This document shows positions 21,257-52,600 of a DNA stretch of 64,000 nucleotides, piece after piece. The stretch covers positions 173,634,556-173,698,555 of the forward strand of contig CP136067.1 in the NCBI GenBank assembly GCA_032622095.1, given 5' to 3'. Made by a program: the position numbers and the translations under genes. The stretch's first letter is position 1; every line of letters begins with the position of its first letter. Below the pieces are notes generated by a model. It saw only the letters and a list, made by a program, of their open reading frames with translations. It was not told where the DNA came from and did not search any database. This stretch comes from Siphonodentalium dalli. Lineage: Eukaryota; Mollusca; Scaphopoda; Gadilida; Siphonodentaliidae.

Positions 21257-21837
21257 ATGCCCGTTTGAGATATTGATACCATCATTTTGTCCATAGTTGG
21301 CAATCGTTTTATGCCCTCGCCGTAATCGGATATGGTTCGGAATATATAGTCGATGGATAAATCCGTCCATTCATACATTGAAATATTGAAACCATCATGT
21401 TGTCCATAGTTGGCAATCGTGTTATGCCCCCGACCGGACTCGGATGTGGTTCGGAATATATAGTCGATGGATAAATCCGTCCATTCATACATTGAAATAT
21501 TGATACCATCATGTTGTCCATATTTGGCAATCGTTTTATGCCTCCGACCGGACTCGGATGTGGTTCGGAATATGGATAAATCGATGGATAAATCCGTCCA
21601 TTCATACATTGAAATATTGATACCATCATGTTGTCCATAGTTGGCAATCGTTTTATGCCTCCGATCGGACTCGGATGTGGTTCGGAACATATAGTCGATG
21701 GATAAATCCGTCCATTCATACATTGAAATATTGATACCATCATTTTGTCCATAGTTGGCAATCGTTTTATGCCCCCGACCGGACTCGGATGTGGTTCGAA
21801 ATATATAGTCGATGGATAAATCCGTCCATTCATACAA
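21257..21837. repeat. Minisatellite, 114-bp unit, five copies
   Basis: The block CCATTCATAC recurs at 21367, 21481, 21598, 21712 and 21826, spacings 114, 117, 114, 114. Because the unit is a multiple of three it leaves two long overlapping minus-strand frames of about 190 codons, which I regard as by-products, not genes. The array begins 47 bases after the six-Cys stop codon. Confidence 0.93.
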
Positions 21838-27604: not shown

Positions 27605-28028
27605 TGGCTGCGGACACACGTATCGCAGTAGCGATGGCATAGTAGGTGTGACAATTATATATGGTGGAGTTTGGTGACAATTGGTTGTCATAATTAATTT
27701 GCCATAGCGATCAATGTCGCCCGCTGCATATTCGTATAATGAGTCCTCCAAAGTTCGTTATAATCAGTCTTTTTCTTGTTTTTGGTCATTGTGCAGTTCC
27801 CCCAACAGTTCCGACACAGCTTCATTGGCCCACATGATAATATTAGCGGAATTATGCGGTGAAACGCCGTGGGTTAATTGGTCGAGTCAACTCATTGTGC
27901 GGAAACTCAGCGGGCGACACGCTAGCTATGGCACAGAAATATGACGACCAATTGTCACCAAAATTGCACCATAATAAATTGTCACACCTACTATGCCATC
28001 GCAACTGTGGTACGTGTGTCCGCAGCCA
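27605..28028. mobile_element. TIR element of about 424 bases with TGGCTGCGGACACACG ends
   Basis: TGGCTGCGGACACACGTATC, GCGATGGCATAGTAGGTGTG and GGTGACAATTGGT on the left are mirrored on the right. The centre (27770-27860) has short frames without a recognised transposase motif. Superfamily unknown. Confidence 0.75.
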
Positions 28029-28552
28029 TTCTTGAGGTTTTGTTACTATCGATCAATATAATTTAGAAATGTTAAAGTAAATATTTCATTTCCATGTGTA
28101 ATGCGCACGGTAAATCTTGTTAGGATAAAACGCAGAATCTCCAGTGCATAAAAATTACTGTCACGTGAACTCAACATGGTTGGTATAGGAGCTGTCACGA
28201 AAGACGTGGTGTGGTCAGAAGTCAAAATATTTACACGGATGGCCTGGTATAGGCCGATCGTATAGTCAATATGTACACACTATTTACATGTACATGCAGA
28301 TGGTGGTCGAACGAGTAGACACTGATGTTATTTCACATATTGCAGAAATGAATCGCCTTCACCAGAATAAGTTCTTTGTCCTCAACGAACATCAAATTGC
28401 ATTGATTATTTGCAGATTGTCCTAAGAATTTAGTTGGCTCACATAATCCGTTGGTTCACATGGGATTGTCGTTCTGAACATGTTGGTTCAAGTTAACTGC
28501 GATTAGTTCACGCCATTGTTCTGAACAGGTGATTCGCGCCGACATCCCTGGA
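28029..28552. other. Probable 3' UTR and flank of the tetraspanin gene
   Basis: Sequence downstream of the tetraspanin stop on the minus strand. No canonical polyadenylation signal was identified, so the end of the transcript is unknown. Confidence 0.4.
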
Positions 28553-28624
28553 TCAGTACCAATCGTACAGGTCTTGCAATTTTATGTTCCGGCGCAGAAC
28601 TATCGCCAAGATAATCCCCAAAGC
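28553..28624 (-). CDS. Tetraspanin exon 8 (end of TM4, cytoplasmic tail, stop)
   Basis: Encodes residues 248-270, ALGIILAIVLRRNIKL then QDLYDWY and TGA at 28555-28553. Acceptor TTTCAG|GCT. The RR after the hydrophobic run fits the cytosolic end of TM4. No clear AATAAA signal was seen just downstream. Confidence 0.94.
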   Translation of the reverse strand, partial: ALGIILAIVLRRNIKLQDLYDWY

Positions 28625-31600
28625 CTGAAAATTAACAAAACATTTTATCATCACAAATGAGCATTATTATGGCACCGAGGTGGCCCCGGAAATTTTAATT
28701 CTTCACAATTTGATGTCATTGCATGCATTCATGGGTAACTGGGCATCTTTTAAAGATATGTTATCCGAATTAACGCTCCTAAGTTACTATTTGCTTTTGG
28801 GGGTAAAACATATTTGATTCCATTCGAGGAACCCACTCACCAAAGCTCAGAGTTATAAGATACCGATTTTTTTATTTTTGGCGGCCTAGCAAATATTCGA
28901 AGAGCCGACCGACATACTCACTATACCAAATGTTGATATATAACACGTTTTTTTGGAAATTTTATGCTATAGTTGACAGTGGTTAGAATTTTTTTTTTTA
29001 TAATTAATCGATTCTGATAACTGGAACGTCTTTTGACGAAATGTTGTTGTTGGAATCTGATGATACGGGGACCATCGAATAGGATTGTGTACCTTTAAAG
29101 TATATGTACTGTTGACGATCGAAAGGAGATAATTCATTTTTCAGAAATTGGTGACAGGTTTTTGAGAATAACAGTTTCTAAAAATATATTTAACGGATCA
29201 TGTGAAAATCACAAACACTGAAAGATGGTACTGTTATCTTGTACACACATTGGGTTGTTTGATCAATTAGATTCATTTTAGTAGATAAACAATGTTTTTA
29301 TCATTTTTTTTCTTACATTATTTATCAATTTTTATCAGTTTTTCTTATATTCTTTAACAATTTTTATCATTTTTTATCATTATATCGTACATTCTTTAAC
29401 AATTTTTTAACATTTTTTCATTTTGTTTTCTTACATTCTTTAACAATTATAAAAAATAATATAAAATTTGTTAGGCCAATGCATTCTCTTATATATGCGA
29501 GGCGACCAATGGTTGACTCGCATATATAAGAGAATGCATTGGCACAGGGTTTTCCAAAAATTCAGGAAGCTCCCGTCATGAAAGGGTTAAGTTGGACAGC
29601 CCCACGATGGCCACGTCCCTGCTGATACGCCCATGTACGCTGATGTACATGGAGGCTGTGTTGTATTACCTTACCTGAATCAGAAGTATTCCAGCGCCTG
29701 TACCTATCATTACTGGCTTCTCTGCGTCTATGATGTGCAACAGTTTAGTGTAGCAACCCTGCAATTGCGTCGAGATTCGTTAAAACTTCAATTCTCAAAA
29801 CAATACATTTTCACATATATATACATGCACATTTCTACAGGTATTGAACATTTCATATTAATGTGTGGAAATATATTAATATTCATTTAAATAGCTCTTG
29901 AAAAATGGTTTCACTCAAAACATTGTAAACATCGAAACTTGGTAGAGTTAATTTGCCTAATGTCTAACAAATTTTAATGTGAACAAGAATTGTTTTGCAT
30001 CTGAATAGCCAAGAACACCCCACTAAACTGACCCAGATGTACATGGTTTATATAGATCATTTCGTCGAAAACAGAACACTGAATTAGACTGGCATAACCT
30101 GCAAGCGCTGTACATGTTTATGCGACCCCGAAAATTTGAGCGACAGGTGACTGACTTGTTGACCATTGAATCTTTCTGCACACCCACACGTCCTACAGAA
30201 GAATGGCGACAATGCTCTCCGGAGATCTGCGCATGTTGCTCCGATGCACAGATAATAATGGTCATATTGTGCCAGAATAGGACATTTGGACGTATCCATT
30301 CAGGAGGTTTCCACATATATTAAGTAGTGGGAGGAGCTTACGGTTGCTAGGATACAAAGCATCTTCAGAAATAGTTTAATTAGTTTCACAGAGCCTGCCT
30401 TCATGACACCCGAGAACATTGTAAAAGATATGACGATTGGGGTCCTACTAAAACCCGACAGGGGAGGTGCGGTCGGCGCATTTTTGGATATCCCGTACCT
30501 GGCAGAAACGGCCGCAAGTTAGGGGTTAACAGTGGCGTGTCCGCTCGAGCTATCGACTTGGGGTTGGAACTTTAGTACATTCAGGTCCATTCTACACGAT
30601 AGTGCAAACCCCACCTCGCTCGGACCCCTGGGGGCGGTCCGGTCGGTGCGGTCGGTGCGGTAGGGGTTTAGTAGGACCGGACGATTGTCACGAAAAATGA
30701 AAACAAAATAAAAGTGTCCCCCCGAAAACGTGGCATGTCGATGCCGCTTTGTTAAAGAAATTAAAAAAAAGTCGAAACGGTTAATAATTCCGGAAAGAAA
30801 TATTTTTTCCGTCATCTGTATACATTTTGCACATCTCCAATATGTGGGTAACAATACTCTGAATTTTCAAATATCTACGATCAAAACTGTATGAGGAGTT
30901 GAGGTACCCTCATATATTAAGTGGAAAGGCCCATAACTCTGGGAAAAATCACTGCATCAAACTCAAATTCTAACTTGATATGAACGACTCACAAAAAAAC
31001 GGAATTTTCAATTGAACAGTTCAAACTTGAGTTATAACCCGGAAACCAAAGAAAAAAGAAGAAAATTGAATTTTCTAAGTAAAAAAAACTCCATAACTCT
31101 AGGAAAAATAATCGGACCAAACTCAAATTCGAACTCAACCTGTATCTTGATATGACTGATCCACATTAAAACCGTATTTGCAATTAAAGGATCCAAACTT
31201 GACATATCATCCGGAAACCGAAAAAGTGAGAAATTATCTAAGTAAAAAAAAAGTCGAAAAAGGGAAATAACTCCATAAAAGAATATCGTATCATACCCAG
31301 AATTGCAGAGCACCTTTGTTCTTGTTTTATACAACTACACACCAAATTGTAATAAAATCGGATGATCATTACTGGAGTTATAACTCAGGACGGACGGACG
31401 GACGCACGGCTAGACGGACGGGGCTGATTACAATAGTCCCCCAAAAATAAATTTATCGGGGGACAAATTGTGTTATAATCACTGATGCATTTCCAACATC
31501 ATTGCACAAATCGTTTCAGTGCATTATGATTTGACAATAACAAATTTGTTTCAGAAAGGCAACCTAACACTGAAAGTATGCGCAAATATCAATATTAGGG

Positions 31601-34600
31601 TGAGCGAAGAAATTTGAATTCAACAAACGACCAGCTCATTAGCTGATTGGTAGAAAATATATGCTAATATCTATTTGATTGGCAGGTGTGGAAAAGTCCA
31701 TTATTCTGATGTGGTCATGATCAATGACCGCTAAAACATTGACATCTATTCTGACTCATCTAAATACCCAGGTACGCCAAATATATAGACCTCGTGTGAT
31801 GGGCCAATCGCCTCACCTCTTTCAAATGTTATTCAAAGTTGTTTACAGGCAAAAATTCTTGCATTTAATTTGCGTATTGTTAATAAAGCGAATACTCCGA
31901 TAGCCCCCCCCCATACCAAATAAAGCTTCAATGCCAACTACGCTTCATCTTCAATTTTATTTCCGTGCGGGCATACCTGTTTGTGGACGTCCAATGAATC
32001 GCCCATGACTCTGACGCCCAGCCTCGCGGATCTGCATACCTGTTTGTGTACGTCCAATAAATCGCCCATGACTCTGACCTCAACCTCGCGGATCTACAAA
32101 CCTGTTTATGCACGTCCAAGGAATCGCCCATGACTCTGACCTCAGCCTCGCGGATCTACATACCTGTTTGTGGACGTCCAGGGAATCGCCCATGACTCTG
32201 ACCTCAGCCTCGCGTTGACACATTTCTTTGTTCTTTGGTTCGTGGTTCTGATTCATTACACAACAACTGTGTGGCACATACATCACCTGAAATTTGACAT
32301 CGACATTTCTAACTTTTGATATGTTCAGGCGTTAACCCTTTACCCAACAAACCGGCCAAAACCGGCCAAATAAAGCTTCAACAGCCTAAAATATCTTCGG
32401 TCTGTCTCAATAGAACCATACAAATATGGATATCATTGGAACCGGCTCCTTGACCACATTGTGATAGTTACAGTTATGCCCTGTGCCAATGCATTCTCTT
32501 ATATATGCGAGTCGACCATAGGTCGCCTCGCATATATAAGAGAATGCATTGGCCTAAAAAAAATCCTTTTTTAACACTTTTTACCATTTTTTTCTTACAT
32601 TCTTTAACAATTTTAGAATTTTTAATGTGTTAAGCCAATGCATTCTCTTATATATGCGAGGCGACCTATGGTCGACTCGCATATATAAGAGAATGCATTG
32701 GCACAGGGCCGTTCTATTGGGTAAAGGGTTAAATAGTTTGATGAATACATTAAACACTGATATACAGACGTTCTGACAGACCGAGTCTTCTCGGTCTACA
32801 ACAGCTTGGATATCGGTTGGAATGATGCTGGGTTGGACGAGAGCCGCCCCGTTGCTCTTCTGTAACGGACTTTCTAAGGCCTAATGCTTGGTTCTGACTG
32901 ACCCAAATAATGGGTCCGATCGATTGGTCATCTGGACCTAAACTTTTCTATACTAAAGCATAATTGATGAGTAGTTATCCCATAGGAAATGTTCAGATAA
33001 TAAGTTTAACAAACGACCATATAGGCGGTTTGTTGAACTTTTGATTATCTAGAAATGTCCCCCAATAAATAGGACTCCATATAAACCTGTGATTTAGTTA
33101 TCGGTTGTCTCCTTATATTACCTGTACATCACTGCCAATAAATGTACACGTTTTAAAGCCACATGACGGTTTGCGCATAATATTATTCGCTTTCGAATTT
33201 TCTCAGTATCGTATATACGTCGATAAATATCTGAACTACCTTTCTACGGGCATTATGTAACCCAAAAAAGACGCATTGAAGTAATGCAAAATTCAACTGT
33301 GAATACGGTGTTTTGGTCCCAAGCACAAAACAGCAATTTGCACGACACGGAACAGAATAGAGCGTTCAATGGTGGTCTATTCCTGATATGGTAGTAATAA
33401 AGAGCGTTTGTTTGACTTCTGGCGGAAAGTTGAAAATTGGCTGTGACTTTGGCAAGTGTTTTTCAGAACATATGAAGCCGGTATATTGTAACAGAACGAT
33501 GTGCGCCCATGTCCGATTCAAATCCCTGTGTACTACCTTGTGTGCTATTGCATAAGTTATTTTTCATCTATTACGATGCACGAAAAACAGGCACGATTTG
33601 TTAGTCGGGACAGTTTTACTTAGCATGATGACGAAATCACGCGATGCTGGTTCTCAGGAAATACACCCGGTCAAACCAGTGCAGTGGTATAAAGTTTATA
33701 GTTGTTTTGGTAAACTGCACTGGTCGTGATATACGATAGCTTCCGTTAGTTCGAGCCGTTGCCAAACTTTGGCCAATAACATCGTCACATGATTTTGAAA
33801 GCAGGTCACCATTTTCAAATATAAGCGATGAGAATTTACCCACCATTGTTCAGTTGACCGAGTCGCACTAAGATATCGCTCTGGTGATGACTTACTGATC
33901 CCAAAGAAAGAAGACCTGAGAATGCCAGCATCGGCTCTCGATATCTTATGGTTCCATGAGTTTGTCGACATCCACTTCGAAACAAAAAAAGTACTCAACG
34001 CGAAGTCCGGGAACGACCTTTATCTCCAACGTACAGGTTCTGACACAATATCAATAGTCGTTTTATCGACCTATCGTACCCGTCGCTCCAAATTACGTAG
34101 TAAAACAAATTGGAGGTTCGAATGAGCGATGTCCGTTTAACTGACTGAGAATCCATGTAGTAAAGATATGGTTAAACGGACATGGCTCGTTCGAGCTTCA
34201 AAATTCCGTTTACCTAATCTGGAAGGAGATATAAGATAGGTTAACCCTTTACCCAACAAACCGGCCAAATAAAGCTTCAACAGCCTAAAATATCTTCGGT
34301 CTGTATCAATAGAACCATACAAATATGGATATCATTGGAACAGGCTCCTTGACCACATTGTGATAGTTACAGTTATGCCCTGTGTGAATGCATTCTCTTA
34401 TATATGCGAGTCGACCATAGGCCGCCTCGCATATATAAGAGAATGCATTGGCCTGAAAAAAATAATTTTTAATGTGTTAAGCCAATGCATTCTCTTATAT
34501 ATGCGAGGCGACCTATGGTCGACTCGCATATATAAGAGAATGCATTGGCACAGGGCCATTCTGTTGGGTAAAGGGTTAACAAACACACGAAATATTGATG

Positions 34601-37600
34601 CTTCATGCTCGGAAAAATACTTGCCATAACCACAACCATTTTCCATCTGTTTACAATTTTCGGACATAAATGGAATAAACGCTCTTTATTTCTACCATAT
34701 CAGGAATAGACTAACACGGAACGCTCTTTTCTGTTCGATGCCATGCACATATGTCGCTTGTTTGGTACCCAAGCATCGTGTTCAAAGTTGTATTTTTGTA
34801 TGACTCCAGTGCGTCTTTCTGTGCCATATATAATGCCAGTAGAAATGTAGTTTAAGTACTTATCGACCTACATGTATTTCGATACCGGGAATACCTCACA
34901 AGCGAATATTATTAGGTGTATTTTGGATCGCAAACCGCCACGTCGCTTTAAACATCGGTGATATACATCAGGGCCGGCAACCTACGTCATAAGTTACTCG
35001 AAAATGGCGACAGGAGATCACGCCTGGCAATTTCAGCACTGGTTTTTCTATATGTTCCAAATATAAATATCACAACGGATACGACAAAAACAGGTATCGA
35101 ACATATATGTATTTGCTTTAAAGGAGATTTTGTCCTTCAAATCACACGACCTCGAAACATGAGCCGAAGTCACGTGAACACTTATGCCTTCTCGATAGTC
35201 ATATTTATACGAGGACGGGACTGATAGTGAGCTAGTAAATAAATTTAGCATCACTAAATTCACCCTCTGGGGACCTCATTTTTTGCTGATTTGATTTTAT
35301 ATTGGCCCTTCGTGATGTCTATTTTATTGGTGGAGGAAAGGCAACAGAAAGAGATAATTTCACTGGGAAATTACTGCCATGGGCCTAGATATCAACTGAG
35401 GAGCTTGCCCAGATACACGAATCAAATTATTCTCCCTTTGCACCAGCATTGTTTGTTTATTGCTGTTTGAAAGGTGAGAAAAAATGAACCTGCAGTAATG
35501 CCCTAAATAGTCGACTCCTTAACCACACAGAATTATGGGTAATTTTTCAGGATTTAGTTGGAAATATGGCTTGTTGCCATTCATCGGAAAGCTCTCAGTG
35601 AAAAATATGGCTTGTTGCCATTCATCGGAAAGCTCTCAATGAGACCTTTCCGATGAATGACAACAAGCCATATTTCCGACTAAATCATGAACAATTACCC
35701 ATAATTATGCTGTGGTTAAGGAGTCGATTATTTAGGGCATTACTGTATGTTTTTGGTCGAGTTATTTACATGGGCGAAAAAACGATGAGTGCGTCACTCT
35801 CTTTAGGTTAGTGAAGTAATTCGATTGGTAGCGCCCTCCAACGGATTTTGGACCAAGATGCAGGAGAGAATTAAAAACATTCTGGGCTCTGGTTGGTTAA
35901 TAGTAGTTTCGATATTTAAACATATAAAATACATGCAATCACTCCTCTTGAAATTACAGATGCCAAACAAAACATTGGTACATTGTAAAGCACGTGGTTC
36001 CTAGATTGAATTTTGTTGGTGTGAGGTAAAACATGTGAATACTGTTTTCATGGACTTCTGACTCTAGATTATAAATTCCAAATTTAAAGATATATTCCAT
36101 GCCCGACTATATGATTTTTTTCGTGCAGAAACTTTGCGCAGATGCCAATCCTGGTAACATGTACTCACTTATCACAATTCTTGGAAAGTCAGGGCTGCAG
36201 GCCATTAAATGTTAACACTGAGGCCTATGGGAAATAATTACTTCACTGTAACCTTTAATGTGACGGAGACATCTTGCCGCCATTTTCGAGCAAATTACAT
36301 GTATGACGTATGTTCCGGATCTGTACATATGTATCGTCACGATAATGTGAAACTCGTACTGCTGATTTTCGCACGGAAATGCATCAATCATATATCAGGA
36401 AAAGAGACGCCAGATGCACACTTATGTTAAGTTATTACGGAGATCCGACTGCGACACCCAGTCTGCAAGCGATCGCATAGGATGAATCAATATATTTATG
36501 AATTGTAACATAAACCATGCATGGCTCAAGTGTATGGTGTGCAAGGAGAGCGCATGGTTAGTGTGCAAGGACCCCACCCGCACCACATGTGATGTCACTC
36601 GAATTAATAAAATGATTGTTTTTGTAATACATGTACTTACACATACAGAGGATCTCAAATGAGTTTCTATTTTATACGGAATTTATCAACCGAGTTCACT
36701 AAATTCGAGTTGAGCCGAGGTTTACCGAGGCTCAAATAGAATTTAGAGGACGAGGTTGATAAATTACGTATAAAATAGGACGAGTGTGAGATACCTTTTA
36801 TCACATGATCAAATAAACCCGAAGCAACGCGAAATATTCATCGAAAACAACAATCATAAACTACAGCGATCGCAAGTTATTTGAAGAACGCCGTGACGTC
36901 TTCGCACGCGCTGATATTAAAGATACGGTTGGCCTTGGCGGTGGGTATGCTGTGAAAATATCTCCACCCGTCAAAAACCGCCACAAACAGAAAGAACATC
37001 AAAATGTAGATAGACTTTGTCGTATACAAATAAGAAATATCGCATAAACAGTATGTTATGGTCATATGTTTGACCATTGTTATGTAAACAAAAGCGTAAA
37101 AAGTTACTTTTCTGGTGTTTGTTTATATTATGACGGTAGACATAAAGAGCGTTCTTTGTTGGTGAATACCTGATATGGAACTAATAAAGAGCGTTTATGC
37201 CATTTGTGTGTGATTAGCCAGTAGCATTGTGTTGTCTTCTGTAACACAATCAGGCTCTAGCTTAGGTAAACTATAGTAGGTCTTTATGATAACATGCTGT
37301 TTACGCGATGGTCATGGTATATATGAACAGAACTGTATGAGTCTTACTGTTTTTCTGTTTACTGTGTTTGGAACAAATATGAATATTTTCGACAATTAAG
37401 GCCGCACGTGCCTTTAAACGTGTCTATTACCGATAATTATGAAACTGCTTTTATGGCCACATTATGTGATAAATGATTGTATGACATCACTGTATATAGT
37501 GTACATAAATTATACAAATAAAATATAATAAAAAAAAATCGAAATAGAAATTTTACTTCGCACGTCGTTTGGTAAATGTACATTGTATCTGCATGTTGTT

Positions 37601-40600
37601 TGGTAAATGTACATTGTATCTGCACGTCGTTTGGTAAATGTACATTGTATCTGCATGTTGCCGTTCATATTCTGGCACCATATGTTTTTTTTACAAGAAA
37701 ATACCTGCAAAAAATCCCATGCAAACTTGTCAGTGTATGAACGTGCCCTAATCCAATTCATATAATGGCATAATATTATTGTGACAGAAAGGCACATCGA
37801 TCATTTCAATTTCGGCCTCAAGTCCTTGATTTAAACTGGAGCTGACGAACATGATATTCGAGATTTACAAGTAATTCATATTTACGTACATGATGATATA
37901 AACGCTCTTTATTTTGTCTTTCCAATAACACAGCCGAACGCTCTTTAATTCTCGCGCCGAGAAACACATTATAAGCGTTTGATGGAGAGGTTTCACAAAT
38001 TCGCGGTTGGGAGATTCGAGTACAGGTATGACATCTCGTCACTAAGTTGTGTGTCCATTCTAACTGCAACCGCGAAGCCCTATAATCACCTTAGTGGGTA
38101 GGGTATCAATTTCTTTGGTTTGTACAACAACCTTTTATTATATATACAACTATTCTGATTGTGATAAAAGCGAGCATTACTAGGTATAAACTGAGGCTTC
38201 ACATCGTATTTCTGTTATCTTTGTAGAATCACTGCTCCATCCGAAACGAATTCGTTTAACTGCGAACTTTTCGCACACCTTTCCCATCAAAATATAAATA
38301 ATACCAGAAAATAATTATCAGATGAATGATATCAATATACGCTTGTACACTATGAGGAATAAAACACACGCGCCGTGATAACGGCGTGAATATATGCGGG
38401 CAAAATCGTCATCAACAAATGAATAATATCAAAGGTGACACATCCCATTTAAAACCAATTTACGCACATAAAAATAAAAAAAACAATATTTCACTTATCA
38501 GGAATGCATTAATTGCAATTAGAGTTGTCCGCGTATAACACCTCGATGCCATGAAGACCACAACAAAAGCATCAACACTTATCAGATTGGAATATGCATA
38601 AAATCATATTTTAGGAGCATTTGTATTATATAACTCCATCTCATCATTAGCCAATAACATTAATGGGTATATTCGAACCAATTATATAGGACACGATAAA
38701 ATTATGCATCTGCACTTAAAAGGTGCAGAATAGGGACATATAAAACTTCAGGTAAGTACTGGCGTCCAAAAAAATAGTTCATTTAATATATGTGTTAGTT
38801 AATACCTTTTAACTTTAATGGATGACAATGTAGATGAAGGTTGCAGCTCGAGATTGAATGGATTAAGTGACTTTGGTGAGCGACTTTGCTTTGCGTCGCT
38901 TTCAATCATGGAATTTCTACTGGGTAATCAAGACAATGTTTGTAGAGATATCGCCTCACACAACTCACAAAAATGAAAACAAAAACACGCAAACTCAAGA
39001 TGGGACCACCCATACTTTGAAATTGATTATTAAGGAACAATTAGTATTAACAATGAAATATATTCCCTGCGTTGTTCGTTTAACCATTTCAGTGCCAGGT
39101 TCGATTTTTGTATCAACCGATATATCCTGTGCCAATGCACTATCTTATATATGCGAGTCGACCATAGGTCGCTTCGCATATATAAGAGAATGCATTGGCC
39201 TAACAATTTTTCATCATTTGTTATTATGTTTTACAATTTTAATAATTTTTTCTTATATTCTTTAACAGACTTATTGTGTAGGTTTAGTGCCATGGAATCT
39301 TACGTTTTACACGGGCATCAAAATTATTACTATGAATACTTGGTGATATTTTTGAGTTATAACATGCCCCTACGGTTTTATCCAGTTTGTTTTAAAATTT
39401 GCTATAGCATGCTTAAGCATACCCACACAAATATTTTTTTAAACTTTTTTTTATAAATTTTTAGGGCCGATTTTACAGACCGTAAATTAGGGCCGATGAG
39501 ATCGGCCCCTGGCACTGAAAGGGTTAATGTCATAGAGTTCCCCGTCATAATAGGTCGGGATATCAAACAGTTCCCAGGTTTTAATCTGGTGGAGTATGAT
39601 CTCAATGGGCGAAGTAAATATGTAAATTAATTTGTGACGCATAATAATGACCGCGTAGTTTGTCAATACCCCTCTCTATACTAAATACTCATCGTCGAGT
39701 ATGGGCTCGGTGGCTCAATCGGTTAGGGGTACAACTCCAAGCCGTCTCGCCACCAATCGTTGGCGAGAAGGGTTCAAATCAACATGACTACATCGTGGAC
39801 TTTGTAACTCGAACTAGTTATCCGGTGGAGTTGCCAATTACTCGCCGATGACCGGTGGTTTGCCGCACATTGTCGACGTGTTTATCAGCCATTGAAATCA
39901 CTGTTAGATTAGCCATAAGTGTGCGGTTTCCTCCACCACTAAACTGGCAATGTCGTGAAATGGCCTTAGTGGCTGAAAACGACCTTAAACCCCAACCAAT
40001 CAATCAATCAATCATTGACGAGTAGTTCCCTTATATGAAATGTCCAGACCATAGGTCGTTTGTTGAACTTATATTATCTGAAGATTTCCCACCAATGAAA
40101 ATGAATTCTTCTGGACTTGTATTATCTTTTCGTTATACTGTCATCTACAGTAATGCCCTAAGTAATCGACTCCTTAAACACAGCAGAATTATGGGTAACT
40201 TTTCAGGATTTAGTCGGAAATATCCTGAAAAGTTACCCATAATTCTGCTGTGTTTAAGGAGTCGATTACTTAGGGCATTACTGTACTCTTATTATCTGAA
40301 CAACACTCTAGCTAAATACTAGACGATTGGTACACTTTTATAACTGAGTGGGATAATCCATTCAGCATAGGAAGGGGTTAACTGAACCATAAGGCTTTGA
40401 TCAGTAGACCAATAGGGTGTGGGAGTATAAAGTGTTGTAACTTACGATGTCATTTGGTCCCGAGTGGTTTCGCTGGTTAAGGAACCACGTACTTGTTCTG
40501 TAGTCTTGGAAACTGTCCATACCACAGCAATGGAACTAGAAGGTATAGAGTAGAATCTAATGTTATATTCGTTCCAGACGGGGTACATTTCCCCGTAATC

Positions 40601-43600
40601 ATACCATTAGGCTAGATCAGCCAAACGTACGTGTAACTTGTACCGTGTGTTATTATGGTATTGCTATGGATATGCATTTGGCGGGGAAAAGTCACGTGAT
40701 TTTACGGTGCCAATCTTACACGTTTTTATATCGGCCAGCGTCTTGTGAATAGTAATGTGATTTTACCAGCCAATACGCCAAGGATTATAAAGCAAACTAT
40801 ATGTAATCGTGGTTCACGATTGGATGGCCAGTGGCATCTAATCGCGAGCACATCGATTGAATATCAGAATGTTGGATATCATATATATAGGATATCCACA
40901 CCTTTTCAGTGGATATGGGTTATATCTCATGAGTGATGACAAAACATTGAATTTCCACGAGTGGCTTTAGCTACGAGTGGAAATTCAAATGTTTTGTCAT
41001 CACGAATGAGATTTAACCCATATCCACTGAAAAAGTGTGGATATTCTGTTTATTATATACTTTAGATACTTGCCAATGGCCCCCAATGAATGTCAATACA
41101 TCAGAAATTTCAAGCTGACACATTACGCCCAAAAATATAGTCCCATATTTAAAACACTCAAAAAGTATAGATTTTGTATTTATTATATACTTTCGTTACT
41201 TGCCGATCATTTAACATAAACGTAAAAAATTCATTGTTTTACAAATTATGCAAAAAATATTTATATAAAATTGCCTCACGAAACCAGCGCGTTTGTCGAG
41301 TAAAATTGTTTAGAGCTTAAGTCTGAGCTTTGTTGAATAGCATTCATTCATTCATTCAGGCGCAATAATACCAGTGATATATCGGTATCTCACTAGTGGG
41401 ATATCACTTATATCTCACTGCTAAAACATTATAATTCATGGGCAAGTATATAATAAAATCCCATATCCATACTATGTCAAGTATAGCGAATTATCGAAAT
41501 AGGAAAATACAGCGAAATATAATAATTATTTTTCTAAACGAAATAACGGAAATATTTGAAGAAGTGTTTTAAAGAGCGTAACCCAAACCTGCACCAAGGC
41601 CGCCCACCCAATAAAAGAATTTGACTTATATTTCACCAGAGTTGATCGATTGTGGTGTTGCAATTTATCATGCAAATCGCCGTTATTTCGTCAAAGTACA
41701 TTCTTTATAGAGTTATTACCCTTCAGATTATAATATGATATTCAATCGAAACCACGCGTGCCTCCCGTGGTCGCGATTATATGCCAATAGCCATCATATC
41801 GTGAACCCCTATTGACTATCTTTAGGTATTCAAACGTGTGCGTATTAGGTGAATTTTACGGTGCCAATCTCACATGTTTTTATATCGTTTTGTGAAACTT
41901 ATAGATAATAGTTGGATATAATATTTATAGAGGAAGCGAGACAACTCTAATTGTTTTATTTGTCATTTGGCCGATACTAGAACCATGATTAATGTTTCAG
42001 TTCTGTTCCAACCGCGACATGCGACCACAAGAAGCCACGACTGGCTTCAACTAAATTAAAATAATTCCGGGCCGGAAACCTCTGACTGCACAGTGCTAAT
42101 CGGTCATTATATAAGCACACTCTTGGGTTATTCCTCTTCGCTACACGTTTCGTAAAGTAGACGTTGACACAAAACTTCTGAACGGGTTGACCGCGTACGT
42201 GTAGGCGTCATGGTCACGCGAGTCAGGTGACTTTCGTTGGCAACGACAATTACACACGCTACAAGTTACATGTGTCTGATCCTGGCTATTTTTCTGAAAG
42301 ATTTACTATTCCGAAGATTTAAATGTTGATAAATATTCGAACTTATAAACATTCAGAACAACGAACCACCATACTAGTAATCATTCGCGAAACTTCGGAA
42401 TGGAGAAACTTCGGAATGGAGAAACTTCGGATTGGTGAAACTTCGGAATGGTGAAACTTCGGAATGGTGAAACTTCGGATTGGTGAAACTTCGGAATGGT
42501 GAAACTTCGGAATGACGAAACTTCGGAATGGTGAAAACTTCGGAATGGTGAAACTTCGGAATGGTGAAACTTCGGAATGGAGAAACTTCGGAATGGTGAA
42601 ACTTCGGAATGGAGAAACTTCGGAATGGAGAAACTTCGGAATGACGAAACTTTGAAAAAATGTCAAATTCCTACAGCGATTCTAAGTTGAATAATCAGCT
42701 CTCTTCAGCGTTTTACTGTCTCCACACATACCTATACACTGCCAAATCAATTCACAGCCTCTCAGATGACTGCCATGTGTACATGTAGATGCTAGATGCA
42801 AAATTGTTTATGTATTCCTTTCCAACGAATTTTATTGCAAAAAATGAAGGACCTTTTGGTGTTTAACGTTTATCTATATTTCGCCCACTCGCAATATAGC
42901 CAAATTAAACTATATATTAAAGATACGGGCGGCATTGGTGGTGGGTATGCTGTTAAAATATTCGTCTCCGTCAAAAACCGCCATAAACATAAAGAATAGT
43001 AAAATATAGACAGACTTTGTTCTTATACCAATCAGAAATATGGCATAAACAGTATGTTATTGTCAAATGTTTTCTTTTGGTATGTAAACAAAAGCAAAAA
43101 ACGTTACAGGACCTGGTTTTTGTTTAGATCCGGATATGGTAAACATAAAGAGCGTTTTTTGATACTGTTTTTATGATATGAAAATAATAAAGAGCGTTTA
43201 TATCATTTGTGTGTGATTAATCAATAGAATTGCGCTGCCTTATGTAAACAGAAGCAAAACTTCTGTTCTGTAACACGAGCATGTTCTTGTTTACGTACAC
43301 CATCGTGCGTTTTGACGACAATATAATATTTACGCGCTGATTATGTTTGGCATATGAACAAAACTGTATATATTTTAATATTCCTTCTGTTGATGGCGAT
43401 TTGAACAAATGTGAATATTTCTGCAACGAACGCCGCCCGTGCATTTAAGGGGCGTGTGTATATTGCACTTATATAGGGTTGCATCCGTGTCATTGAGAGG
43501 CAGCGAATTGGTTGGGTTGTGTGATTTGGGCATGATATAATCGATAGAGGCGCACAGCACATGTTGTGGACGAACCAATACAAGTAGTCACGATTATTTA

Positions 43601-46600: not shown

Positions 46601-49600
46601 CAATCACCAGTTCTCTATTATTGGTGTACCGTATTCCAGAGTCGCTGACTAACACTTGAATAATATATATATGAAGAAAATACCCTTTGCACAAAACCCT
46701 GCTCCCACATTAGTCAAAACGAACAAAGAATCACACAAACTCCACCAAATGTTATAGCTACCAAATCAACCATAAGCCTATATAATATAGCAATATGCTC
46801 TGGAAGGCACAACACCAATCACCATAAAATCACAAATCATGAATGTAAATATGTTCAGCTGTCATCTTGAAAACACTTTGTATCTTTAATCGATTGTATT
46901 GGGAGAGGGGCTTCTTAAGTTGAAAAAACTTGTGCCCCAATCCCTTTTGTATATTATATGCAATTAAAATACGTTTCAAGTCAAGTCAAGTCTATACACA
47001 GTACGTAAGATATATATATTGAAGTATGTATTTCGTACTCACGTTATGAAGTTGAACCGCTGCGAGTATTCCAACTGCAATCTCGGCCAGTATCACCAGT
47101 ATTATCAGCACTATATACTGCGAACGGAATAACACCATTATCAGCACTATTATATATCTGTATCTATTAAATATTTATGACATTTTTTACCCAGGACTGC
47201 TTGTTATCGAACTTGGTTAATATCGCTTCAATTTGCCCTTAAACCGAGTTAATTAAGTAATGTCATTTAAAATTATTACCAATCCGACTATAATTTCATT
47301 TTACGACATCACAACTCCGAGTAATATCGTTTTACGACATGCTGCAAATCTACTTCACTGCTAAATTAATGTGTAGATATGGATTTGTTATGTCACTTAG
47401 GAAAGAGTTGTCAGTTATATACTAAGAGGCGATCTAATTAATTAATAGGGTAAGTCCGATATCAGCTATCAGTCCGCTTATATCAGCCTTCGACCGCCGG
47501 TCTCAGGCTGATATGGGGTTACCTCGGGCTGCTATATGGCCTAAAATCAAACCAACCAAGTAATATCCTCTAAATATTCTGAAAAAAAGGGACAGTATCG
47601 ATCTCTCATAAGAGGGCCCAGCACCTGTGATTCAATCTGTTGTTGGCAAGACACCACAAAACATGCCAAATATGTGATGAGCGCAACTATAGGCAGCTCC
47701 AGTGAGTGCATTCTTGTTGGCACACGGTTCCGTGCAAAAAGACACACAGGATCTCACAAACGTTCAAAAAGACACCCATGATCTCCCAAATATGCAAAAA
47801 GTCACACATCCTCTCAAAGGCTCATAAACAATATATTTTAAATCAGTCACATGTTAATGATTATTACAGTAATTATTTGTTTGTGACTTTGAGTGAAATT
47901 TCAAACCTAATTTGATGGGTATTGCATCCGCATTGAGTTTGACTGTCGCAGACGATTGAAACTTTGGAATGCTGGGTGACGTTTTGTACATTTGGGAGAT
48001 CCTGTGTGTCGTTTGCACGTTTGAGAGATCAAACGATAAAGATAAAGATAAATTTATTGACAACGCCCCTCGAGGCCGATGTCAAAACAGTTACATAAAT
48101 AAAATGTGATTATAAGTATAGTAACATAAATATATTAATGTTCAAAGTTTGGTGATTCACAAAGTTTATGTAGAAAGAGTTGGAACATGTTGCACGGCAG
48201 ATGATATAACATGTTTTGGGTTCACCATTTCTCAAGATGATTAAGAATTTATGTTGGTCCTCCATATTATTAAAGGTCTGAATATAGTCGATTATTTCCA
48301 CAAATAAACGTTTTCTTATATTTTTATAAATGGGGCATATATAACACAATGAAGTGTTCTTCGGTTTCTACCTCCATTCCACACTTTTTGCAAATTCTCT
48401 CATCAGCGGGTACTTTAGGTCGTTTGTGTCTGCCTTTCCCAATTTCTAAAGTATGGTTGCTGATCCGAAGCTTTGTGAAAGATTACCTAACGGAGAAATT
48501 TTTAACGAGGTTCAAATATGGTTCTATCTGGTATTTTATTTTCGCCCTGTCTGTGTGTCTTTTTGTTCGATACCATGCGACAATGACCAGTTGATCCCCA
48601 TTTGGACGTAGTTCGGGTTGATACTTACAACGATGAGCACTGTTATCTTTTCCATATAAGCTCCGATGCAACCAAACAATGCGACTAGAAACGCGAATAC
48701 GCCGACGCCGATGGTGATGTAAGCGACCATGTGTAAGTCATCCCGGGTGATATCCAACCCATGAAAATGTTCCAGGAAGTACTCAAGGCGCAAGTCCAAG
48801 CGCATGAATATTCCAAGGGCAATCAGGCCAAGTCCCACTATCTGAAATACAAACGATCTTTTGAGATATATAGTTCATGCCGGTTACAATGGTACAAGTA
48901 TGAATCGAAGGTCCTCCGACTATAGGAGAGAATAAAATATACACTGGGCTGTGATTGGTCAATATTTGTGTCTGTTTTTGTTTTTTACACAACAATTACA
49001 GCACACATATTCCTGTAAATTCCCTTCTGTAAAATATCCATTGGCACAAAAAATAACCCTTTATGGTGAAGTAGGAATTTTGTGGTGCGCGGTGTGGACA
49101 ATGCCAGTATTTCGTTCAGTGTTGTTATGACCTTATGTTAGTGTTGTTCTGAACCTAAGATGCTAAAACACAAGGTTTAAACCTTCCACGACCGAAGTTT
49201 CCTCAAATTTTACGAAAACCATGTACCAATGTATTCTCATATATAAGCGAGTCTCCCATGGGGAAACTCGCAAAAATAAGATAATGCACTGGCATAGGAT
49301 CTTTAAAGTTTATAGCTGCACCATCGCAGGTGTTAAAAGGGTTTAAATGGTTAAAGGCAGACTCCCTGCAAGACGGACCTGAGTTTTTTGCATAAAATGT
49401 TTTGCCAAATATTTCAGATTCTAAGAAAATTCAGACCTGGGTTTTATACTGAAAACAGTATATACATATATACACTAATTTTTTTTTACTTTTTACTGAT
49501 GACTATTTAAGGAAATGATTTACAACATTGTAACATGCCATGACACACTGAATCATGAACACCAGTTAACATATGGATGAATACTGAATGCCTATAAACA

Positions 49601-52600
49601 GAGGAATGGACACTGAATACCTATAAGCAGATGGGTGAATACTGAATACCTATAAATAGATGGGGTGAATACTGAATACCTATAAATAGAGGTGGTGAAT
49701 ACTGAATACCCATGAATAGATGGGGTGAATACTGAATACCTATAAACAGAGGGGTGGATACTGAATACATATAAGCAGATGGGTGAATACTGAATACCTA
49801 TAAATAGAGGTGGTGAATACTGGATACCTATAAATAGAGGTGGTGAATACTGGATACCTATAAATAGAGGTGGTGAATACTGGATACCTATAAATAGAGG
49901 TGGTGAATACTGGATACCTATAAATAGAGGTGGTGAATACTGGATACCTATAAATAGAGGGGGTGAATACTGGATACCTATAAATAGAGGGGGTGAATAC
50001 TGGATACCTATAAATAGATGGGGTGAATACTGGATACCTATAAATAGATGGGGTGAATACTGGATACCTATAAATAGATGGGGTGAATACTGAATACCTA
50101 TAAATAGAGGGGGTGAATACTGGATACCTATAAATAGAGGGGGTGAATACTGGATACCAGTTAAGAACATATGTGATGAAGCTTTCACATTTCAAAACCA
50201 TCTATTTTCATTACTTTTCTCAATAGTTATCTGCCAAACTGAACCTCATTACGAGTCTAATTAAAACATACATACTTTCGTCCAGAGTGTTTATTGAGGC
50301 ACATAATGGCTTGTTTTGATGTGTGTGGTGGTGTTTTTATTATATAATTCCGGTTTCATGGTTGAGGCCAAGCTGCAGAACAGAGTTCAGTCCCCTCGCT
50401 ATGCTATGTCTGACCGCTGCCGGAATGTGTATTTTCTTAATTAAATCTTTTTATTGAAGTGTTTTGTCAGTTACAATTCATTCTGGCTTGATCGAAACAA
50501 ATTTAAAATTAACATGGACAGTTCAGTTTCTCAGAATAATGCAGAATGAATTGTAACCTTGCAAAAGTCTCAAATAAATAAATGCGACATTTCTTCACAG
50601 TATATATAGGTGCTGGCAGTGGTAAGTCCTGCGTAGGGGACTGAACTATGCATGGAGCTTGCCTCAACCCAAGCTTCATGCAGAGTACATATACTGCGAA
50701 GAAATGTCGCATTTATTTATTTGAGGCTTTTGCAGGTTATAATTCATTCTGCATTATTCTGAGAAACTGAATTGTCCATATTCATTTGAAAATTGTCTTG
50801 GTCAAGCCAGAATGAATTATAACTGACAAAATACTTCAATCAAAAATGTTAGATTAAATTAAGAAAATAAACATTACGGCAGCGTTCAGACATAGCATAG
50901 CGAGGGGACTGAACTCTGTTTTGCAGCTTGGGTTTGAGGCGACCGTCCGTCACGTCATATGACGTCAACGGGGTGCATAGAAAACGTGGGGCATATTATA
51001 CGTATTTGTAATTATGGAGCAGCAGCAACTCTGTAATTCTATAGGAACAAGCGCTAAATGTCAATGACAATTTCGTTCTCCTTTAAGCAACGTTAAAATT
51101 TATAAAATCTTCCGGAAGATTATTGTGATCAATCAATAAATTACCCAATCTCTACCAGAGCGCACCAGTCATTCTTCCTGACTGACTGTCACCGGCTGGG
51201 TACTGGTATGTGTTTCTATATTTAGCATGGGGTTTTCCAGCAAAAACGGCGAAACCTGATCGCTCCAAATTCAAATTTTCAATGAGCTTTGAGAACAATT
51301 ACCACACTAAAACATGATGACAGAATGGAAAATCAGAGCGGTAGATTTGTTGACGATTTTCGCAAGCTACTCGTCAAAATTGCAGCAAATTAGAACTCTT
51401 GTGTTTGACTTGCCGTGCGAGTTGTTAATGTCGTACACGTGCGTTTAGACTTTTGTGGTGATAAAATAATCGGAGAACCGAATCACACCGTTTCGAAATA
51501 TAGTTCTTCGGTTTTAGTGGGACTTTTCAAACTTAAGGTTCAAAATTTATACAATTTTGTTCGATATTCTTTGTGCTTAACAAGGGCAGTATGTTGCTCT
51601 GTTCGTTTAGTATATATCTTAATATCGCGGAAGTCCATAAAATGTGGGTAAAATGTCGCCGGCAGCAGCGGTCTTACCGAGTCATCAATGGGGGTAAACC
51701 CTTCATGGAGTTTGTAAATTACCTACGCTCTTCGCGGCAATACATTATAGAACCCTTATTTATGATATACATTAATTATATATTTATTATATACACACCC
51801 TTACTTCCAACGTTCATACACAAATCGCCCTGTCTCCAATTTAGCCCCCCTGAACATATGTAACGTCCCTTATCACCTCTAAATACATTACATGACATAT
51901 CTTGTCTACATGCATCCACACTTTTTCAGCCCCACCCTACACATACTCATACACCAGTAATGCCTGATATTTTAAATTTTCTTATTTAATTTTCCTTGTA
52001 TGCATGCATCCGTCATGCCACATCGATTATATTAAAAATTTTGTTGTTATACGTTGTTATACATATTCTGTATTGTTGGGAGCGGAGGCCCATGAATGTT
52101 TCATGAACTTTTTTTTCCAATCCCCCAGTCGCTGTACCTCATTAGACTATTAAATTATGTTTAAATCAAATAAATAGTTGTAGTAACACAGCCCACAACA
52201 ATGTGCTGACATTGGACACTTTGAAATCGCGTCGGATCACATAACACCATTATTCCGAGACGACCTCCATTATAAATCGGTTTCTAGGTCTCAAACCTTT
52301 ATTTTTAATTGTATTCAATCTGATTTCACACTATACAATTGCTCCTTCTTCATGCTCCGTAACGGTAAATTAAACTTCATCTAAGAAACTACTTCGTGTG
52401 TATGTCTGTCCGATGTCGACTTTCAAAACTTATGATAACCACGTTATGGATTCTGTATGTATATTTTTTAATTTATGAATAATTTTAAACGCCCTAATTA
52501 TCATGCAGGCCCAATTCACACAGACACATAGATGACTGTACTATTGGACTGCATGGTACATGTAGATCTCTCCATGGAACATACTGTACTTGTGGATACC

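Follow-up and report, generated by a model that had tools for sequence, protein, structure and literature searches.

A four-copy minisatellite across the exon 6/intron 6 border of a tetraspanin gene in Siphonodentalium dalli

At the end of exon 6 of a tetraspanin gene in Siphonodentalium dalli, a 62-bp unit made of the exon end and the adjoining 5′ splice site (donor) occurs four times on the minus strand, with spacings of 62, 62 and 63 bp. The gene lies in the window analysed here, i.e. the whole 64,000-nucleotide stretch of contig CP136067.1 from position 173,634,556 to 173,698,555, from whose first letter the positions below are counted. The array is very probably a neutral minisatellite, founded by a tandem duplication over the exon 6/intron 6 border, with the first donor being the one used; both the use of this donor and the neutrality of the array we infer from sequence. 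A further observation is the recurrence of such exon-boundary minisatellites across several genes of this genome.

The tetraspanin gene occupies roughly 48.8 to 28.6 kb of the window on the minus strand, and its mapped junctions are in phase 0. Exon 2 (48629-48841) carries the second part of TM1 together with TM2 and corresponds to a match of Pfam PF00335 at G000:C7:173683187-173683411, with CD9 found among the PDB sequences (E 1.4e-05). The assembled product further includes the TM3 exon (47043-47117, YIVLIILVILAEIAVGILAAVQLHN), exon 5 (40446-40535, FHCCGMDSF...NDI) with the CCG motif of the large loop, exon 6 (32164-32286), exon 7 (29675-29758, GCYTKLLHIIDAEKPVMIGTGAGILLIQ, phase 0, acceptor ATTGCAG, donor GTAAGG) and the last coding exon, exon 8 (28553-28624, acceptor TTTTCAG), which reads ALGIILAIVLRRNIKLQDLYDWY to the stop and contains the end of TM4. 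These six exons, assembled without exons 1 and 4, score 103.5 bits against PF00335 (cut-off 32.1, E 1.7e-29) and reach profile position 223 of 225; membership in the tetraspanins is thus given by a PF00335 score above the cut-off and by the CCG loop motif, and the weaker matches of the same product, to DUF2981 and MARVEL, fall below their own cut-offs. A search for exon 4 of the gene yielded no convincing candidate.

The preliminary description had claimed four consecutive donors made by tandem duplication, and these are real: Tandem Repeats Finder (TRF) reports the array at 31972-32214 with a period of 62, 3.9 copies, 91% matches and a score of 400. Where that description gave the last 50 exon bases plus the donor as the repeated span, the unit comprises 51 nt of exon end and 12 nt of the adjoining intron, with the spacing as described; the donor positions named there, 32164, 32102, 32040 and 31977, are exactly the exon-end coordinates of copies 1 to 4, and the AAACAG followed by GTATG or GTTTG is present in every copy (AAACAG/GT in 4/4). 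Copy 1 consists of the last 51 nt of exon 6 and its native donor CAG/GTATGT. It is followed by copy 2 of the exon end (32102-32152) with the donor-like CAG/GTTTGT, by copy 3 (32040-32090) with CAG/GTATGC, and by copy 4 (31977-32028), which has one extra base and the same CAG/GTATGC, after which the intron is unrepeated. Pairwise comparison of copies 1 to 3 shows 4, 6 and 7 differences over 63 sites, and copy 4, besides its extra base, departs from copy 1 at three sites of the exon part. All four copies keep the G at donor position +5, while at +6 a T is common to copies 1 and 2 and a C to copies 3 and 4; since copy 4 adjoins the native intron, the C is probably the older state. As a repeat the array is beyond chance: the 24-mer centred on the exon 6 junction has a copy matching at no fewer than 20 of 24 positions within 450 nt, a result given by 0 of 62 shuffled stretches.

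A DNA search of the genome (2.23 Gb, 9 contigs) matched the array region at one place and found no second copy, and exon 6 used as a protein query matched only itself and copy 2, a missing match being no proof of absence in either search. Rfam applied to window positions 28000-36000 at the gathering score gave no match. The mollusc haemocyanin family PF14830 was likewise without a match, a result that the search tool itself rates as uninformative. A separate observation concerns a near-perfect hairpin repeat of 69 nt, often paired (e.g. at 32485-32553, 32634-32702 and 29475-29543 of the window), two copies of which lie in intron 5 immediately ahead of exon 6. Allowing up to three mismatches, the window has 33 occurrences of its half-site CCAATGCATTCTCTTATATATGCGAG, on both strands, against 0 expected, and the repeat looks like a small hairpin mobile element.

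Joining donor 1 to exon 7 gives ...GDSLDVHKQ/GCYTKLLHIIDAEK..., reading ...VHKQ/GCYTKL, and among the four donors it is the only one that yields an intact Pfam tetraspanin. As had been calculated before, the distal donors add 62, 124 and 187 nt, none a multiple of three (remainders 2, 1 and 1). The frame opened by donor 2 stops 30 residues past the exon end, those of donors 3 and 4 share a stop inside copy 3, 27 residues past the exon end, and each of these products ends ahead of the last membrane segment. On a donor matrix from the literature the four donors score 9.8, 5.8, 8.3 and 8.3, copy 2 having a T at +3 that makes it a poor donor. In the mechanism we favour, a tandem duplication crossing the border would have founded the minisatellite, copy 1 would be the true exon end and copies 2 to 4 passive intronic sequence; the splicing machinery would choose donor 1 as the one nearest the exon and the best match, so that the mRNA would be unchanged. 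This reading draws support from the intact product of donor 1 and the early stops behind donors 2 to 4, from the donor scores, from the wealth of arrays in the window, from the recurrence of the structure elsewhere, from a rate of donor copying equal to the background and from the amphioxus splicing data cited below.

With one period-3 array excluded and a TRF score of at least 60 required, 22 merged tandem arrays occupy 8.1% of the window, and when the 11 mapped exon borders of the gene are rotated round the window at least one border falls in an array in 51% of placements; given this coverage and this proportion, an array over some exon border is unsurprising here. The large arrays of the window include those at 49578-50158 (30 bp x 19.5), 42389-42652 (16 bp x 16.4) and 21265-21836 (114 bp x 5).

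The same arrangement of exon end and donor was found in three other exons among those sampled from the tetraspanin, fn3 and Sushi families of the genome. At locus L018 (1416-1582, contig G000:C1, minus strand) the end of a TM2-type tetraspanin exon with the donor GTAGCG/GTAAGT is repeated five times in units of some 33 bp. Locus L059 (G000:C4, around 35.17 Mb, minus strand) has an fn3 exon end and donor in about seven units of 72 bp, over a stretch that begins 37 nt ahead of the donor and ends 460 nt past it, most copies reading LVSDKVTPKKPL or one change away from it. At the donor of locus L007, also on the minus strand, a tetraspanin exon end with GGAACG/GTAAGT is present in two units of 78 bp, unreported by TRF. 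The first donor scores highest or is tied in three of the four arrays; in L059 it scores 4.8 against 4.9 for the fourth copy. A 40-bp array at L028:1678-1810 runs from the donor of a tetraspanin loop exon onward, with the GT itself uncopied. On contig G000:C1, among the matches listed, several distant arrays have a unit core like AGGTAAGTGGGTGTCTGACCAGGT, and these look related, perhaps as a dispersed repeat with a donor-like motif.

How freely such duplication strikes splice sites was gauged on 62 donors, made up of 24 from tetraspanin exons (read by eye), 5 from the window, 29 of 30 fn3 loci and 4 of 22 Sushi loci. The sample includes L054, L060, L026 and the four Sushi loci, and also L052 and L059, despite donor scores under the cut of 5. 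Excluded were L009, L012, L013 and L019 (unreadable donor), L004 and L005 (exons the same as window exon E2 and L030, respectively), L063 (domain match shared with L062) and 18 Sushi loci in one long open frame. The Sushi repeats at G000:C3:206394530-206402929 lie within one unbroken open frame of 2,818 codons, whereas many other Sushi matches are single-domain open frames.

The junction 24-mer was copied, by the threshold used for exon 6, at 4 of 62 donors and 0 of 61 acceptors, a further copy at the L050 donor (19/24) lying below the threshold and being left uncounted. Random 24-mers of the same loci were copied in 40 of 620 cases and shuffled stretches in 0 of 62, and donors are therefore struck at the background rate. 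Acceptors look spared from junction copying, the difference from donors not being significant (p 0.119; without the exon given at the outset 3/61 against 0/60, p 0.244) and most acceptors having been picked by pyrimidine content, with a possible bias against unusual ones. Arrays within 100 nt of the junction were counted at 6 of 62 donors against 0 of 61 acceptors (p 0.028; 5/61 against 0/60, p 0.057, with the given exon removed) and arrays within 300 nt at 14 of 62 against 6 of 61 (p 0.086; 13/61 against 5/60, p 0.072), so that a preference of arrays for the donor side of introns is suggestive only. An enrichment of the donor motif in arrays genome-wide found no support in scan counts: triples of AGGTAAGT spaced 20-50 nt apart numbered 2,291 against 2,315 for the reversed pattern, and the rearranged motif AAGTAGGT gave 366 against 1,441 reversed, the counts being unsupportive because the matches overlap and are dominated by large satellites. 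Counted by eye as separate places among the matches listed, and uncorrected for the abundance of either 8-mer, the donor motif occurs at no fewer than 15 on C1 (to 250.5 Mb) and the rearranged motif at 3 on all of C1, which hints at such an enrichment.

These counts raise a more general proposition, which we consider tentative and on balance doubtful: tandem duplication may affect 5′ splice sites as readily as any other DNA of these loci while leaving 3′ splice sites out, so that exon ends with a working donor would be copied into introns repeatedly and the donor nearest the exon would prevail through its position. If true, it would mean a standing stock of exon-end copies available for intron sliding, exon extension and new introns.

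One point speaks against copies that have always been intronic. In a single post-hoc test, run under three substitution models and with copy 4 taken without its extra base, 5 of 8 minimal substitutions are synonymous in the frame of the gene (p 0.014-0.038), and such coding-like differences are unexpected in DNA assumed to have been intronic throughout. They hint that the copies may have been coding at times, e.g. through unequal exchange, and the corresponding alternative is that turnover of the array, by unequal exchange or gene conversion, placed each copy beside the exon at times and left marks of coding selection. In line with this, copies 1 and 2 differ in their exon part by synonymous changes only (3/3), and the pairwise differences amount to 14 synonymous and 10 non-synonymous in the frame of the gene, against 6:18 in each other frame. 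The events are few, however, the test was made post hoc with the p values given, and when applied to L059 it gives 3/7 (p 0.34); we hold this history to be improbable, if compatible with the neutral minisatellite described above.

The preliminary description had set a neutral duplication beside a switch, and the neutral duplication with use of the first donor is the better supported, by the sole intact product, the best score on the donor matrix and the recurrence at background rate, while the switch has gained no positive support. In such a regulated switch, donors 2 to 4 would produce frameshifted tetraspanins without TM4, or transcripts lost to nonsense-mediated decay. The AAACAG/GT and the +5 G kept by all four copies would fit it, as would the early stop in every alternative product, the stops lying 27-30 residues past the exon end. 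The distal donors are weaker, however, with copy 2 poor at +3 on the donor matrix, and the units of the other arrays, 33, 72 and 78 bp, are all multiples of three, so that no frame-shifting design is shared among them. With donors copied at the background rate, and with nothing in the analysis pointing to regulation, a switch seems very improbable.

We give equally little credence to a geometry of intron gain or recursive splicing, in which units would be removed stepwise and the protein left unchanged. Every unit is a GT...AG segment of 62-63 nt that begins with GT and finishes in CAG/GT, and the junction is therefore the same whichever unit is removed; new introns have moreover been described to arise by tandem duplication, either of AGGT segments or, in the potato RdRp, over an intron-exon border (PMC4974935). 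Against this, the array is located at an existing intron and so needs no new intron position. Scored as acceptors on a crude pyrimidine index, the copies reach 9-10, and none exceeds the lowest value in a sample of 55 acceptors (range 10-17); most of that sample had been selected with a minimum of 10 or 11, and one acceptor was entered 2 nt off. The lower length limit of animal introns is about the size of the 62-63 nt units, which would place each of them at that limit. An assembly artefact, conceivable in a single haplotype seen as assembled sequence only, is the least credible reading, as the copies differ from one another and copy 4 has its extra base, which makes assembly stutter unlikely, and as the DNA search gave no second genomic copy, the exon 6 protein query matched itself and copy 2 only, and similar arrays are present in other genes.

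Taken alone, the exon 6 array is a curiosity, and a natural test of splicing choice among four near-identical donors in series. Exon-boundary minisatellites, described in amphioxus, are found here in four exons of two families (tetraspanin and fn3) in a large genome, and their recurrence allows the frequency of splice-site duplication, the tolerance of donors versus acceptors, and the contribution of arrays to intron change to be measured.

Among known systems, human segmental duplications contain internal tandem repeats, with units averaging 30 bp and four copies, that alter gene structure (PMC2812944). The exon 6 array resembles them as a minisatellite expansion touching gene structure; the human repeats change exons or create introns, whereas the array leaves the protein encoded through donor 1 as it was. 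New introns gained through tandem duplication are exemplified by ATP2A1, by a fission-yeast intron across four 24-bp duplicates and by the potato RdRp, whose duplication extends over an intron-exon border (PMC4974935). The array shares with these cases an AG/GT in the duplicated segment, the crossing of an exon-intron border and units bounded by GT and AG. It differs in that its AG/GT already belongs to intron 6 as its donor, and the extra donors lie inside the old intron; since, in addition, donor 1 gives an intact product with no need of a further intron, nothing indicates a new intron position, and the array therefore falls outside the definition of intron gain.

The closest likeness is to the mirages of amphioxus, minisatellite-like tandem duplications of exon-intron boundaries in globin genes, whose name comes from earlier work on Adh3 (PMC3087553). 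Mirage units measure 10-160 bp and many, but not all, contain AG/GT signals; duplication can affect the 5′ as well as the 3′ boundary, two haplotypes of BflGb6 have 6 and 3 units, and regular splicing despite the mirages is suggested by RT-PCR and by the Adh3 data (PMC3087553). The array differs from those of Adh3 and the globin genes in its host, a tetraspanin gene, and in lying in a genome of 2.23 Gb, larger than the roughly 0.5 Gb of amphioxus; it resembles them in its unit of 62 bp, which lies within their range, and in the two features of a mirage that can be checked on sequence, a repeat spanning an exon-intron border and AG/GT signals repeated in 4/4 copies. We read it as a further case of the mirage kind, a kind known from amphioxus.
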